Source: an uncultured Kangiella sp. | GTDB taxonomy: Bacteria; Pseudomonadota; Gammaproteobacteria; Enterobacterales; DSM-103792 | DNA length: 5,824 bases | Reading direction: 5' to 3' | Assembly: GCA_946481205.1 (NCBI GenBank) | Contig: CAMLNB010000225.1 | Span: 1 to 5,824 of the forward strand | Shown here: positions 2,364 through 5,824 of the stretch, in pieces | How positions within the stretch are numbered: position 1 is the stretch's first letter | Layout: each line of letters begins with the position of its first letter | Position numbers and translations under genes: made by a program | The notes under the pieces: model-generated | Seen by the model: the letters and a program-made list of their open reading frames with translations, nothing else | What the model was told of the DNA's origin: nothing | The model's database searches: none

Positions 2364-2828
2364 TCAGGAGCGAACCGCCGCTTCGATTTCGGCAATGTCG
2401 ATCTTCTTTTGCTTCATCATCGCCGCAATTGCCTTGGTAGCCACCTCCTTGTCGGCCTTCAAGGTCAATTCGGTCAGCCGCCGCGGGAACACCTGCCACG
2501 ACACACCGTAGCGATCCTTGAGCCAGCCGCAATGGCTTTCCTCGCCGCCATTGGCAGTTAGCGCAGCCCACAGCCGGTCGGTCTCTGCCTGATCGTCCGT
2601 CTCGACCGAAATCGATACGGCCTCGGACAAGGTGAACATCGGCCCGGCATCAAGGATCTGATACGGCACCCCGCCCAGCGTGAAATCGATTAGCCAGGAC
2701 GCACCGTCTCCGGAAATATCGTAAGTTGCCTCGACTCGGCTGTCCGGAATCAACGTACAGTAAAACGCTGCAGCCTCACGACCGCGACCATCGCGGAACC
2801 AGAGGCAGGTACGTATGGAATTGGCCAT
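2364..2828 (-). CDS. PhnB-like VOC-superfamily protein (3-demethylubiquinone-9 3-methyltransferase-like fold)
   Basis: This 154-aa protein belongs to the PhnB/'3-demethylubiquinone-9 3-methyltransferase' family (PF06983-type) of the vicinal oxygen chelate superfamily. The family name is historical; methyltransferase activity is not implied, and most members have no known reaction. Visible family signatures are RTCLWF (6-11), EAAAFYCTLIPDSRV (18-32), DFTLGGVPYQILDAGP (48-63), EAVSISVETDDQAETDRLW (69-87), GWLKDRYGVSWQVFP (101-115) and a C-terminal helix region ending KIDIAEIEAAVR. The open frame extends upstream to 2939, but the ATG at 2828 is chosen because AGGAGG lies nine bases before it and homology begins there. 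The longer form would translate the attC of the previous gene. The leader from the attC boundary is about 50 bases, so this may be a cassette gene, but its codon use looks GC-rich like the chromosome. Family call firm, function unknown. Confidence 0.9.
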   Translation of the reverse strand: MANSIRTCLWFRDGRGREAAAFYCTLIPDSRVEATYDISGDGASWLIDFTLGGVPYQILDAGPMFTLSEAVSISVETDDQAETDRLWAALTANGGEESHCGWLKDRYGVSWQVFPRRLTELTLKADKEVATKAIAAMMKQKKIDIAEIEAAVRS

Positions 2829-2873: not shown

Positions 2874-2931
2874 GTCCAACTTCTGAATTCGTCGGCCACC
2901 AATGACGACCAGATGGAACGAAGGGCTAGCC
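2874..2931 (-). other. attC-like recombination site (58 nt) closing the 274-aa gene cassette
   Basis: Read on the minus strand, the site starts with GGCTAGC (2931-2925) and ends with GTTGGAC (2880-2874). The latter fits the integron R' core GTTRRRY exactly. The interior is an imperfect palindrome: CTTC/GAAG (2880-2883 with 2920-2923) and TCGTC/GACGA (2889-2893 with 2904-2908) around a 10-base loop. The TAG stop of the upstream gene (2926-2928) lies inside the left box, typical of cassettes. The left box matches the complement of the cassette's own first bases (GTTAGCC) at six of seven positions. Confidence 0.65.
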
Positions 2932-3750
2932 ACCTTCACCCTCTTGTGATCGCCGGTCGGACGAAGCCGTGATCTCTACGATGGCGAAGCCGCGCGGATC
3001 GTCGATGAAGTTGTCAGCGAACTCTTCCGGCGGGTCTAGCACCCATCCAATGCGCTTGTAAATCAGCTCAACAATGTCGCGGACTTGTCCCTGCAAGTCA
3101 GCTCCCTCATTGCCATTGCAGAAGCGTTCTAAAAACCGTAAATGAGAGTCACAATCTTCGCAAAAAGGTTGTTCTGCTACTTTGCACAGAATTGGATTTC
3201 TAGTATGTATCGGAAACCCGTGCTGGTAGAGAGGCTGGCATGCCTTAATGCGCTTGACTGAATATGAGAGTGCATTGGCTGTGTCGAACAACAGATACTG
3301 TGCAATTTCTCCCGAATGTGGCAATCCGTTATAGATTACGGGTTTAACCCCACCCCGCTTGTAGACTGAATTACCAAAGCGGAACTGTATTTTCTTGATG
3401 TTCGCCAAAAACTCCAGTTGGTGGGGCTCGATTGACCAATAGCCGCTCCCTCTCTTTGCCTGTACAAAGCAAGCTTTCGCTCGAACAAGTTTGCCCGTTA
3501 GATCCAACCGCTTGTAGACGTATAGAACGTCACCAAATTCACACTTCTCGCGCCCTGCTATAGCGGTTGGGTTGACGAAAAATGCGTAAGGGCGTTGATG
3601 TATGAACCCAGCCCGAACCTTCATGCCCGGTTTCTGAGCGATCTTTCCCGCCGCCATAACGTAGCTTCGAACTATGTCCGGTTCAGTTCCTCCGGCAGCA
3701 ATCGCATCTGAGAGTTCGTCGTTAAGTTGCTGAGCAAACTGTGCTAACAC
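2926..3750 (-). CDS. Unknown 274-aa cassette protein, possible PD-(D/E)XK-type nuclease
   Basis: I do not recognise a named family with confidence. The GTG at 3750 is preceded by GAGGA six bases upstream, which fixes the start, and the frame ends with TAG in the attC box. The N-terminus (1-45) is probably helical. Next comes a region with beta character containing E71-F-G73-D74, then 22 residues later Q97-A-K99 in ACFVQAKRG, then YWSIEPHQLEFL with Q111. An E/G-D ... (E/Q)-x-K spacing followed by a helix is the pattern of a restriction-endonuclease-like core, so a nuclease is a reasonable guess. The second half carries C171, C189, C197, C200, H203 and C211, including C-x7-C-x2-C, a possible zinc site. 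No signal peptide or membrane segment is seen. Base composition is AT-richer than ada or the amidase. It is flanked by attC sites on both sides and lies downstream of the GIY-YIG cassette. Coding is firm; function is inference. Confidence 0.8.
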   Translation of the reverse strand: MLAQFAQQLNDELSDAIAAGGTEPDIVRSYVMAAGKIAQKPGMKVRAGFIHQRPYAFFVNPTAIAGREKCEFGDVLYVYKRLDLTGKLVRAKACFVQAKRGSGYWSIEPHQLEFLANIKKIQFRFGNSVYKRGGVKPVIYNGLPHSGEIAQYLLFDTANALSYSVKRIKACQPLYQHGFPIHTRNPILCKVAEQPFCEDCDSHLRFLERFCNGNEGADLQGQVRDIVELIYKRIGWVLDPPEEFADNFIDDPRGFAIVEITASSDRRSQEGEGG

Positions 3751-3766
3751 GGCAATTCCTCAAGAT

Positions 3767-3834
3767 GGCTAACGCTCATGTTCAGCTTCGGCCCCGTCGA
3801 AGTCGGGGATGTCGAGTGGAAAAAGTTGTTATGC
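3767..3834 (-). other. attC-like recombination site (68 nt) closing the GIY-YIG cassette
   Basis: On the minus strand it runs from GCATAAC (3834-3828) to GTTAGCC (3773-3767). The centre has a perfect 5-bp stem, CCCCG/CGGGG (3792-3796 with 3804-3808) around a 7-base loop, with an alternative CTTCG/CGAAG pairing. The outer arms pair imperfectly. The TAA stop of the GIY-YIG gene (3829-3831) lies inside the left box. The left box is the exact complement of GTTATGC, the first boundary box of the same cassette at 4405-4411, as the circular cassette model requires. Confidence 0.7.
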
Positions 3835-4386
3835 GCAAATTTTCCCGACCTGCTTCTGTAGCTTCTGGATTTCACCTTGAAGCGTAGCTATTTGTTCCAA
3901 TACATCTTCCAGCGAAAGCTCGGTGATGTTCTCGTCTACTTCTTGAAAATACTGCTCCGCCTCTGTAAATCGGGCCCCCTGTTTATTCAGCTTGGGTTCC
4001 ATCGCTGCGATGAGAACACCCTCAAGCTCACCCAGAACCAATGATCCCTCAGATTTGTAGACCTTTTCAGCATGATCGTGCTCGGACAGAGAGCCGCTCC
4101 CGGGGTTGACTCGACGGAGGCCAAACCAGGAGAAGTAGTCCCATCTGTTCCAAAGATGGTCTCTGGTGTGATGCTTCAATCTACCAAAGAGAGTTGCATT
4201 GCCGTTACCGGCCTGCCCGACGTAAACCGGGATATGGTCCTTGTCGTAGAGAACATAGATACCGATCTGATCCCTGAAGTCAATGATGCCTTTTCCAGAG
4301 CGAGCACCCAACAAGGTACCTTTGTTACTGCCCGCACCGAGATGCAAGTACTTTCGTTGCCAAAGCAATCCGTAGTTTCTTATCAC
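3829..4386 (-). CDS. GIY-YIG nuclease-family protein with C-terminal coiled coil
   Basis: This 185-aa protein carries a GIY-YIG endonuclease domain. G42-I-Y44 (IGIYVLYDKDHIPVYVGQAG) supplies the GIY strand and Y55-V-G57 the YIG strand. R69 in LFGRLKHH is the expected catalytic arginine, and E122 in ELEGVLIAAMEPKLN is the expected metal-binding glutamate. A WDYFSWFGLR stretch (82-91) is typical of one uncharacterised branch of this superfamily. The C-terminus (about 150-182) has heptad-like Leu/Ile spacing and is probably a coiled coil for dimer or partner contact. All four expected catalytic positions are present, so it is probably an active, cytoplasmic DNA-cutting enzyme, although the target is unknown. 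The GTG at 4386 is supported by AAGGGAG seven bases upstream. The gene lies alone between two attC-like sites with a leader of about 24 bases, the usual cassette layout. It has no UvrC or homing-endonuclease domains. Confidence 0.88.
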   Translation of the reverse strand: MIRNYGLLWQRKYLHLGAGSNKGTLLGARSGKGIIDFRDQIGIYVLYDKDHIPVYVGQAGNGNATLFGRLKHHTRDHLWNRWDYFSWFGLRRVNPGSGSLSEHDHAEKVYKSEGSLVLGELEGVLIAAMEPKLNKQGARFTEAEQYFQEVDENITELSLEDVLEQIATLQGEIQKLQKQVGKICA

Positions 4387-4404
4387 TTACAAACTCCCTT
4401 TAGC

Positions 4405-4492
4405 GCATAACACAAAATTAAACGGCTCACTTTAGCGCGTCCGACAGAATGAAGCGCAGCGAAATTGAGCGCCTCTTAAGAAGTCATTATCC
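4405..4492 (-). other. attC-like recombination site (88 nt) closing the 130-aa gene cassette
   Basis: On the minus strand it runs from GGATAAT (4492-4486), holding the TAA stop of the 130-aa gene, to GTTATGC (4411-4405). Paired blocks occur in matching order on the two arms: ATAA/TTAT at the outer boxes, TTAA/TTAA (4418-4421 with 4476-4479), GGC/GCC, GCTCA/TGAGC, TTT/AAA and GC/GC, separated by single mismatches or extra bases. The unpaired centre is about 15 bases. Long imperfect arms with extrahelical bases are characteristic of attC and not of terminators. The left box departs from RYYYAAC, the weakest part of this call. Confidence 0.6.
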
Positions 4493-4879
4493 TGCTTTTG
4501 TCATATACGAAACTCGGCGCAATTTCATTCTGTATTTGCTCCTTACATCATACAAGCCAATTTGAAATTCCTTGACTTTCTCGGGCGACCAACTTTCTGG
4601 ATTGAGCCAATAATCAGACTTGTACTCACAGATTTCGGCAAATTGAGAATCAATGTGGCGCATTGGAATGGCGGCGGCAGACCAGTATTTAACTAGTTGC
4701 GCTTCAGTTTCGAGATTTCTTGGCGAACCTCTGTCAAGGGACTTGTAATAGAAAAGCGTTTCGTTCAATGCAGTTGAAACTGAGCGAAGCGCATTATCGC
4801 TCAGCTCGCGATTCGTTTTTTTAAGATCGGAAATTTGATCGTATAACGTACGAAGCTTATCAATGATGATGTCGAGCAT
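4487..4879 (-). CDS. Unknown 130-aa helical cassette protein
   Basis: I do not recognise this protein as a characterised family. It appears all-helical and highly charged. An N-terminal helix (1-45) has Leu/Ile heptad-like spacing (LDIIIDKLRTLYDQI), followed by LNETLFYYKSLDRGSPR (38-54), a middle with ETEAQLVKYWSAAAIP (57-72), and YWLNPESW (89-96). The Trp/Tyr-rich motifs suggest a conserved fold rather than random translation. No membrane segment, signal peptide or catalytic motif is seen. The ATG at 4879 is the only usable start, because an in-frame TAG lies 18 bases upstream with no other start codon between. AAGGA abuts the ATG directly, too close for a standard ribosome site, so initiation may be weak. 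The stop lies inside the attC left box. Composition is the most AT-rich of the window's genes. Possible roles are a partner or regulator of neighbouring cassettes, but nothing shows this. Confidence 0.75.
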   Translation of the reverse strand: MLDIIIDKLRTLYDQISDLKKTNRELSDNALRSVSTALNETLFYYKSLDRGSPRNLETEAQLVKYWSAAAIPMRHIDSQFAEICEYKSDYWLNPESWSPEKVKEFQIGLYDVRSKYRMKLRRVSYMTKAG

Positions 4880-4901
4880 TCCTTTGAACTCTAACTAGTG
4901 A

Positions 4902-4921
4902 TTAGGAGGCACACCTCCTAA
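4902..4921. repeat. Perfect 8-bp hairpin at the cassette boundary
   Basis: TTAGGAGG (4902-4909), CACA, CCTCCTAA (4914-4921). On the minus strand the first arm overlaps the GTTAGGA boundary box and contains an AGGAGG Shine-Dalgarno-like core, which would be paired away in the leader RNA of the 130-aa gene. On the plus strand it is followed, after CATG, by six T, so it also looks a little like a terminator in that direction. Confidence 0.6.
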
Positions 4922-4981
4922 CATGTTTTTTGAGTGGCATGAAATTTGACCGATTTTCTTCGCCGACTCAAGTGGTTGCCG
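4916..4981 (-). other. Fourth attC-like (or attI-like) site upstream of the 130-aa gene
   Basis: On the minus strand it runs from CGGCAAC (4981-4975) to GTTAGGA (4922-4916), 66 nt. The arms pair as TTGAGT-c-GGC (4971-4962) with GCC-ACTCAA (4938-4930), leaving one extrahelical C, a classic attC trait. The AAC/GTT ends pair too. The left box fits RYYYAAC poorly and no matching GTTGCCG start was found further upstream, so it could instead be the attI-like start of the array or a site whose cassette has decayed. Confidence 0.5.
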
Positions 4982-5502
4982 CGATTTTGTAAAATCTCCC
5001 CACCTTGTTTAGGCTCCATGACTATTCTGTTCAGCACCAATACCGCTTAATCATTTCGATGCGGCTGACAATATCCACCGAATTTCTTTCAAATTCATAC
5101 TGTTATAGGCGGCTGCGAAAAGCGTCGGGCGTTGATATCTCCCAGATACAACCAGCAAAAGTGGCTGGAAATCGCGGTTGGCGTGTTTTTTTGACACATG
5201 ACTCTTGGTCACCAACCTCAACCACCATGCCCGCGCAATATACCAATGCAATAAAACTGTTCTTGGGTGAAGTACTGGCTCCCGTGAGCAAGAGATTGCC
5301 GGTGGGCCGTTGCCGCAAGCGGATCGAGGACGAGCTGTCATTGCCGTCGCTGGTTATTTTGCGTTGCAGCAATCGCTCGCAAAAATGCCGGACAAATGCT
5401 TCGCACAGTGACAGGCCCTTGAGGTGCAGTTCTCTTTGAGTTTGTCCGGGCCGGCGGGTTAAGGTGCGTGCATCCACAACTGTCCGCTGACAGCCAAAAC
5501 CA
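4982..5502. other. About 520 bases without a convincing gene, several inverted repeats
   Basis: Open frames exist here on both strands but none shows a recognisable motif, a good ribosome site or consistent codon use. No tyrosine-recombinase (integron integrase) motif is visible in any frame. Structures seen: CCAGC/GCTGG around a 7-base loop (5152-5168); the palindrome TTGGT-C-ACCAA (5205-5215); a seven-T run (5186-5192); GAATTT/AAATTC on the minus strand near 5080-5096; and a 9-bp inverted repeat at 5388-5396/5441-5449. It may contain the array's leader region or a degraded cassette. No reliable promoter could be placed. Confidence 0.4.
5388..5449. repeat. 9-bp perfect inverted repeat with 44-base spacer upstream of the amidase gene
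   Basis: CCGGACAAA (5388-5396) is the exact reverse complement of TTTGTCCGG (5441-5449). A shorter GCAC/GTGC pair lies nested inside. There is no T-run. It could be an operator pair, the ends of a tiny mobile-element relic, or an RNA stem in the amidase leader; the sequence does not decide. Confidence 0.5.
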
Positions 5503-5547
5503 ATGCAGCCCCTGCCCGCCTCAACCCAGCACACAGCGTCAACCGAG

Positions 5548-5824
5548 ATGGAAAACATGTTGCCACGCAACTTGCCCGATGCCACCGCGTTGCGGCAGCA
5601 ACTGCAAAGCGGCAGTTTGACGGCAACGCAGCTCGTGCAGCGACAGCTGGAGGCCTTGGCGGCCGTGCAGCCGTGCTTGAATGCTGCCACCGCCATTTTG
5701 CGCGATGAAGCACTGCATACCGCGGCACAGCCGCTAACCGATAAACAGACGGCCGGTGCGCTGGCGGGCTTGCCGTGTTCGGTGAAGGAAACCTTTGGCT
5801 TGGCGGGGATGACGGTGACGGCCG
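5548..5824 (+). CDS. Amidase-signature family hydrolase, N-terminal part only
   Basis: A plus-strand frame opens after a TGA at 5488-5490 and runs off the end of the window (92 codons from the chosen ATG). The N-terminus is helical (ATALRQQLQSGSLTATQLVQ), as is usual for amidase-signature enzymes. It leads into AGALAGLPCSVKETFGLAGM (69-88). The lysine of SVKE (K80) is the expected catalytic Lys of the Ser-cisSer-Lys triad; both serines would lie beyond the window. Members hydrolyse amide bonds, and the substrate cannot be told from this part. Start choice is uncertain: ATGs at 5503, 5548 and 5557 are all in frame and none has a strong Shine-Dalgarno. 5548 is taken because it places the conserved helix at the usual distance. 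Composition is GC-rich like the left side, so this is probably native chromosome beyond the cassette array. It points away from the array, and the gap between them is about 520 bases. Confidence 0.88.
   Translation, partial: MENMLPRNLPDATALRQQLQSGSLTATQLVQRQLEALAAVQPCLNAATAILRDEALHTAAQPLTDKQTAGALAGLPCSVKETFGLAGMTVTA

Follow-up and report, generated by a model that had tools for sequence, protein, structure and literature searches.

What is a run of three minus-strand genes, set between genes of another kind, doing in a 5.8-kb stretch of DNA in which palindromes follow the stop codons and no integrase is to be seen? We examined this stretch as a whole (hereafter the window). We read the block that spans 2874 to ~4920 as a likely CALIN, a small array of integron cassettes left stranded with no integrase in view, and we put the probability that it is integron-derived at roughly 0.8. 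The CALIN reading is the best explanation of the locus as far as two of its candidate sites, a and b, are concerned; it receives no help from two others, c and d.

A bounded block of three tandem genes

The genes of the block and those bordering it are as follows.

2364–2828, minus strand: flanking gene of the VOC/3-dmu-9 family (Pfam PF06983, E 3.5e-33, matched by the longer ORF that starts at 2939)
2926–3750, minus strand: 274-aa gene, predicted PD-(D/E)XK nuclease, no Pfam family
3829–4386, minus strand: 185-aa gene, predicted GIY-YIG nuclease (ORF; residues common to relatives)
4487–4879, minus strand: 130-aa gene (ORF; helical protein)
5503–5824, plus strand: 5' part of a flanking amidase gene that leaves the window (Pfam PF01425, E 6.4e-07)

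The initial annotation had described a tandem minus-strand trio with short leaders in a block richer in AT than its surroundings, and this description is borne out. The three ORFs are present, the short leaders are visible in the sequence, and GC is below that of the flanks, with GC3 values of 0.44, 0.57 and 0.52 for the trio versus 0.70–0.76 in four flanking genes. Non-cassette genes border the block on either side: the VOC/3-dmu-9 family gene, ada and a PEP-mutase family gene on the left, and on the right the amidase, which starts at 5503 on the opposite (+) strand. The longest ORF of the VOC gene starts at GTG 2939, so that it overlaps site a (see below) as well as the last part of the 274-aa gene. 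Since its Pfam match begins at residue 41 and the ATG at 2826–2828 is preceded by AGGAGG, the gene probably starts at that ATG, beyond site a. No sigma-70 consensus was found between 2300 and 5510, which is below the counts in shuffled sequence. Relatives of ada were matched in 13 of 369 and in 3 of 14 genomes. In the 14 neighborhoods fetched (12 of the 13, plus 2 more; ada identity 54–65%), no relative of the VOC, PEP-mutase or amidase genes lay beside ada, the amidase query being the first 107 residues.

Two of four candidate sites resemble attC

A search of the window with Rfam gave five chance-level matches and none to attC, and so we built a covariance model of our own. Scanning for attC with simple boxes and folds produced far too much noise, the stricter form of the scan returning 28 hits on the expected strand against 29 on the opposite one; seeds were therefore chosen by eye from the scan output and the covariance model was made from these. 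Plain MAFFT alignment of whole attC sites misplaced their variable middle, which was for this reason masked with N. Full-length IntI occurs in 101 of 274 sampled genomes of one class (that of genome G001), and the training DNA consisted of stretches beside 20 of these IntI genes, six of them shorter than 1.5 kb because the contigs end there. The first model, R1, comprises 20 seed sites and 18 base pairs; at E ≤ 1 it matched 100 times, across 24 sources. The second, R2, was trained on 77 R1 matches with E ≤ 0.009 from 16 sources, all integron-bearing genomes; its training set includes one wrong-strand copy of a real site (L106:10044-10103). Both are home-made attC models, not those of IntegronFinder. 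They were applied to four candidate sites.

2874–2931, minus strand: attC-like site a, where the 274-aa gene ends (R1 and R2 matches, filters off)
3767–3834, minus strand: attC-like site b, where the GIY-YIG gene ends (R1 and R2 matches)
4405–4492, minus strand: candidate site c, following the 130-aa gene (a GGATAAT box covers the stop; GTTATGC at 4405–4411)
4916–4983, minus strand: candidate site d, on the upstream side of the 130-aa gene (with GTTAGGA at 4916–4922)

All four had been put forward as attC sites in the initial annotation; the covariance test, a check which that annotation had itself suggested, upholds the claim for a and b, which were matched by R1 and R2, but not for c and d. 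Site b scored 19.7 bits with R2 on the + strand (E 0.0023) against 4.1 bits on the other strand. Site a reached 14.0 bits on the + strand (E 0.042) with filters off only; under default filters R2 reports site b and loses site a. With R1 and filters off, the values were 11.6 bits (E 0.12) for b and 11.4 bits (E 0.13) for a. In the absence of filtering, b and a rank first and second in the window for both models, the next-best R2 match standing at 6.6 bits. When R2 was run in the same way on 79,603 bases of other DNA, two of whose four sources lie on an IntI-bearing contig away from recognized attC sites, it returned eight matches at E ≤ 10, the best at 12.0 bits. Both sites occupy the expected bottom strand, which for minus-strand cassettes is the + strand. 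Because each covers a stop codon, their positions also count as evidence: at site a the stop TAG lies inside an R''-like box, GGCTAGC, with an R' box GTTGGAC at 2874–2880, and at site b the stop TAA lies inside GCATAAC, with an R' box GTTAGCC. The 185-aa and 274-aa genes thus each show the makeup of a cassette, namely a single gene with a short leader and an attC-like site over or just after its stop. The two sites are 893 bases apart and form a cluster of two by the home-made model, a being marginal; in the excerpts of the literature on which we draw, CALINs are defined by at least two attC sites by default.

Sites c and d gave no match at E ≤ 10 with either model in the window, nor did R2 find them when run on 4395–5130 alone. 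We regard site c as a candidate for a decayed attC, or as none; site d, the fourth attC-like structure that had been placed upstream of the 130-aa gene, is not supported as an attC. An imperfect 31-nt direct repeat (74%, spacing 32) at 4394–4456 spans candidate site c together with the beginning of the GIY-YIG leader, and might be a partial duplication that disturbed the site. Between candidate site d and the start of the 130-aa gene, at 4902–4921, there is a perfect 8-bp hairpin, TTAGGAGG-CACA-CCTCCTAA, which is terminator-like on the + strand.

The 7-nt boxes themselves are weak evidence when taken alone, such pairing being common by chance. The best GTT box within 50–110 nt pairs with the stop-codon box at 5 of 7 positions for the 130-aa and 185-aa genes and at 4 of 7 for the 274-aa gene; among 166 control ORF ends, 72 pair at 4 of 7 positions or better and 24 at 5 of 7 or better. 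Folding of the bottom strands as single-stranded DNA, a check that the initial annotation had recommended for the four sites, was equally undistinguished: relative to shuffles, z was −0.34 for a, −0.28 for b, −0.32 for c, and −1.04 or −1.52 for d depending on the end point chosen, so that none of the values (−0.28 to −1.52) clearly beats the shuffles.

No integrase found in the window

No match to the IntI family was found among the 13 window proteins scanned, and tblastn with 30 queries from IntI loci against the 5.8-kb window yielded nothing significant (best E 0.12). No integrase is thus visible in these 5.8 kb. In a complete integron of the usual layout, the first cassette follows immediately on intI and attI; IntI was not found in the window. 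One could still envision a complete integron with its integrase outside the window, farther right than the amidase. Only ~2 kb to the right of site b are seen here, and full IntI is present in 101 of 274 genomes sampled from the class to which G001 belongs, a class that may not be that of the window's host. Against this, the opposite-strand amidase intervenes at 5503, no IntI-like ORF was found before it, and such an arrangement would differ from the usual layout; we consider this possibility very remote. Nor does the locus lend local support to the suggestion that the block is the distal end of a larger array, because the block is bordered by the VOC/3-dmu-9 gene and ada on one side and by the opposite-strand amidase on the other.

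Relatives of the probable cassette genes and their surroundings

The relatives of the 185-aa protein carry the NCBI name GIY-YIG nuclease. The GIY-YIG superfamily is recognized by its GIY and YVG strands, after which come a conserved R, E and N, and the 185-aa protein displays these residues; Y44, Y55, G57, R69, E122 and N134 are invariant in the 34 sequences of alignment A1. Pfam GIY_YIG_2 is matched weakly by 14 of the 34 relatives, and for the window protein itself none of the GIY-YIG models in Pfam gave a match. With PADLOC this protein matches PDC-S14 (E 0.00022). A pattern scan of the species-genome collection located GIY-YIG relatives at 22 loci, four of them in genomes with IntI above the family cut-off. 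An attC lies near the gene in only one, L004, from a Nitrospira MAG (49% identity), whose contig also carries full IntI. There, the GIY-YIG ORF (3992–4540) ends three bases before an attC, the sites being at 3471–3557, 4543–4630 and 5444–5533. Detection of these sites is by construction, as they belong to the training set (L065 is the same contig) and one of them had been picked as a seed for its perfect box pairing. The L004 GIY-YIG cassette also holds a 93-aa ORF, from which it follows that two genes can share one attC.

The 130-aa family was matched in 4 of 369 genomes, and again an attC lies near the gene at a single locus, L120/L146 in genome G205. The relative there (ORF 7796–8209, 30% identity over 109 residues) is flanked by attC sites at 7705–7776 and 8212–8286, with two further sites at 5447–5507 and 5922–6009. 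The DNA of this locus is outside the R2 training set. Across 36 other loci, 291,992 bases in all, a search with default filters at E ≤ 10 gave only two matches, those flanking the 130-aa-family relative. The attC cluster at L146:5447-8286 includes a 142-aa ORF besides that relative, and G205 is absent from the 101 genomes listed with IntI. Since the L120/L146 relative has an attC of its own, we think it likelier that a site once followed the window's 130-aa gene and decayed than that none was ever there. If it never existed, a single cassette would hold both the 130-aa and the GIY-YIG gene.

These observations bear on the notion that the three genes were acquired horizontally as an ordinary cluster, were never moved by an integron and have palindromes between them by chance. 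The failure of two of the four claimed attC sites, the frequency of equal box pairing at control ORF ends, the unremarkable folds and the 21 of 22 GIY-YIG genome loci that have no attC nearby all agree with it, as they count against integron origin, together with the loss of site a under default filters, its pairing at only 4 of 7 box positions, and the scarcity of attC sites near the gene (1 of 22 GIY-YIG, 1 of 4 130-aa and 0 of 9 viral loci). What it leaves unexplained are two independent model matches that are the best in the window, fall in the right places, over stop codons and on the right strand, and exceed all background seen, as well as the fact that relatives of two of the genes adjoin attC sites elsewhere. 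We therefore judge the chance cluster improbable and retain the CALIN reading.

Predicted nucleases as cargo

The 274-aa protein is a predicted PD-(D/E)XK nuclease of a family without a Pfam entry; hallmarks of the PD-(D/E)XK superfamily are a shared core fold with conserved acidic residues and a (D/E/Q)xK motif. Twenty-three other members of the family were found. It was matched in 0 of 369 and 0 of 178 genomes, counts that show little, as there was no genome known to match. We found no relatives in viral contigs, and searches of plasmids and of PADLOC with this protein gave no match. The 130-aa protein likewise had no match in PADLOC or in the plasmid search. Viral contigs contained eight weak relatives of it; relatives of 25–35% identity occur in L023–L030 and in phage records PP925829.1, PP925837.1 and MK416017.1, those in the three phage records being annotated as hypothetical. 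For the GIY-YIG protein, there were two weak matches in plasmids and one relative in viral contigs. None of the nine viral loci (eight from 130-aa and one from GIY-YIG relatives) has an attC, the exact site-b pattern is absent from viral contigs, and the plasmid search gave no match at the DNA level. Foldseek gave no match at E ≤ 0.001 for either model submitted to it, and PADLOC produced two weak Csm2 matches among the 24 members of A2. In the protein database, the 130-aa protein comes from a 34,827-base contig and the GIY-YIG and 274-aa clusters from contigs of at most 20,917 bases; thus, either the three genes are not always together or the 34,827-base contig breaks between them. The protein table lists 5, 3 and 6 contigs for the GIY-YIG, 274-aa and 130-aa proteins, respectively.

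How might such an array have formed? An integron integrase, acting in trans or since lost from the locus, would have cut the bottom strand of each attC, in its folded form, at the G/TT of the R' box and so linked circular cassettes to one another, a process that would leave the genes head to tail with short leaders. The 274-aa cassette alone has recognized sites on both sides and is therefore expected to be the best mover if IntI were supplied. As for the cargo, the nucleases would act on DNA, most plausibly that of incoming phages or plasmids. It is tempting to go further and speculate that an in-trans integrase inserted the cassettes directly into a host intergenic region, at a non-classical site of the attG type, and that the cargo is an unrecognized cassette-borne nuclease defense set made up of a GIY-YIG nuclease, a PD-(D/E)XK family that Pfam lacks and a helical partner protein. 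Direct insertion of this type would explain why there is nothing attC-like before the first gene. A bounded block with nothing attC-like in front is compatible with a degraded integron just as with attG insertion, and we hold the combined proposal to be rather unlikely.

Comparison with known systems

Published accounts, in the portions on which we draw, report 2961 CALINs, propose that they are degraded integrons and give a mean of almost six attC sites per CALIN. They also indicate that CALINs can be mobilized in trans (PMC12444791) and that insertion at attG sites is another route of origin (PMC12444791, PMC12901181). The probable cassette array described here resembles these elements in having at least two close attC-like sites, cassette-like genes and no integrase found in 5.8 kb; it differs in that only two sites pass, one of them weakly, against the mean of almost six given in those portions.

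Among individual integrons, the class 4-like chromosomal integron of Aeromonas sp. 3925 offers an analogy. In the part of its description that we use, the cassettes include a GIY-YIG nuclease and an endonuclease-domain protein; unlike the block studied here, that integron has an integrase, an attI and eight attC sites (PMC10609294). A fainter likeness links the window's GIY-YIG protein to the GIY-YIG restriction endonuclease Eco29kI (PDB 3nic), with a non-significant profile match (E 0.45) at profile positions 53–136 that includes the region of the conserved E and N. The Eco29kI Pfam family is matched weakly by 2 of the 34 GIY-YIG relatives, and in contrast to Eco29kI, no methyltransferase partner appears among the window proteins scanned against Pfam. 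For the 274-aa protein, PD-(D/E)XK nucleases of the Hjc and RecU types are among the closest known systems. The kind of element is already well known and its cargo is the fresher part. Integrase-less arrays are common, yet each of them samples cassette cargo, and in this one two predicted nucleases and the 130-aa family provide testable candidates for cassette-borne defense against phages and plasmids.
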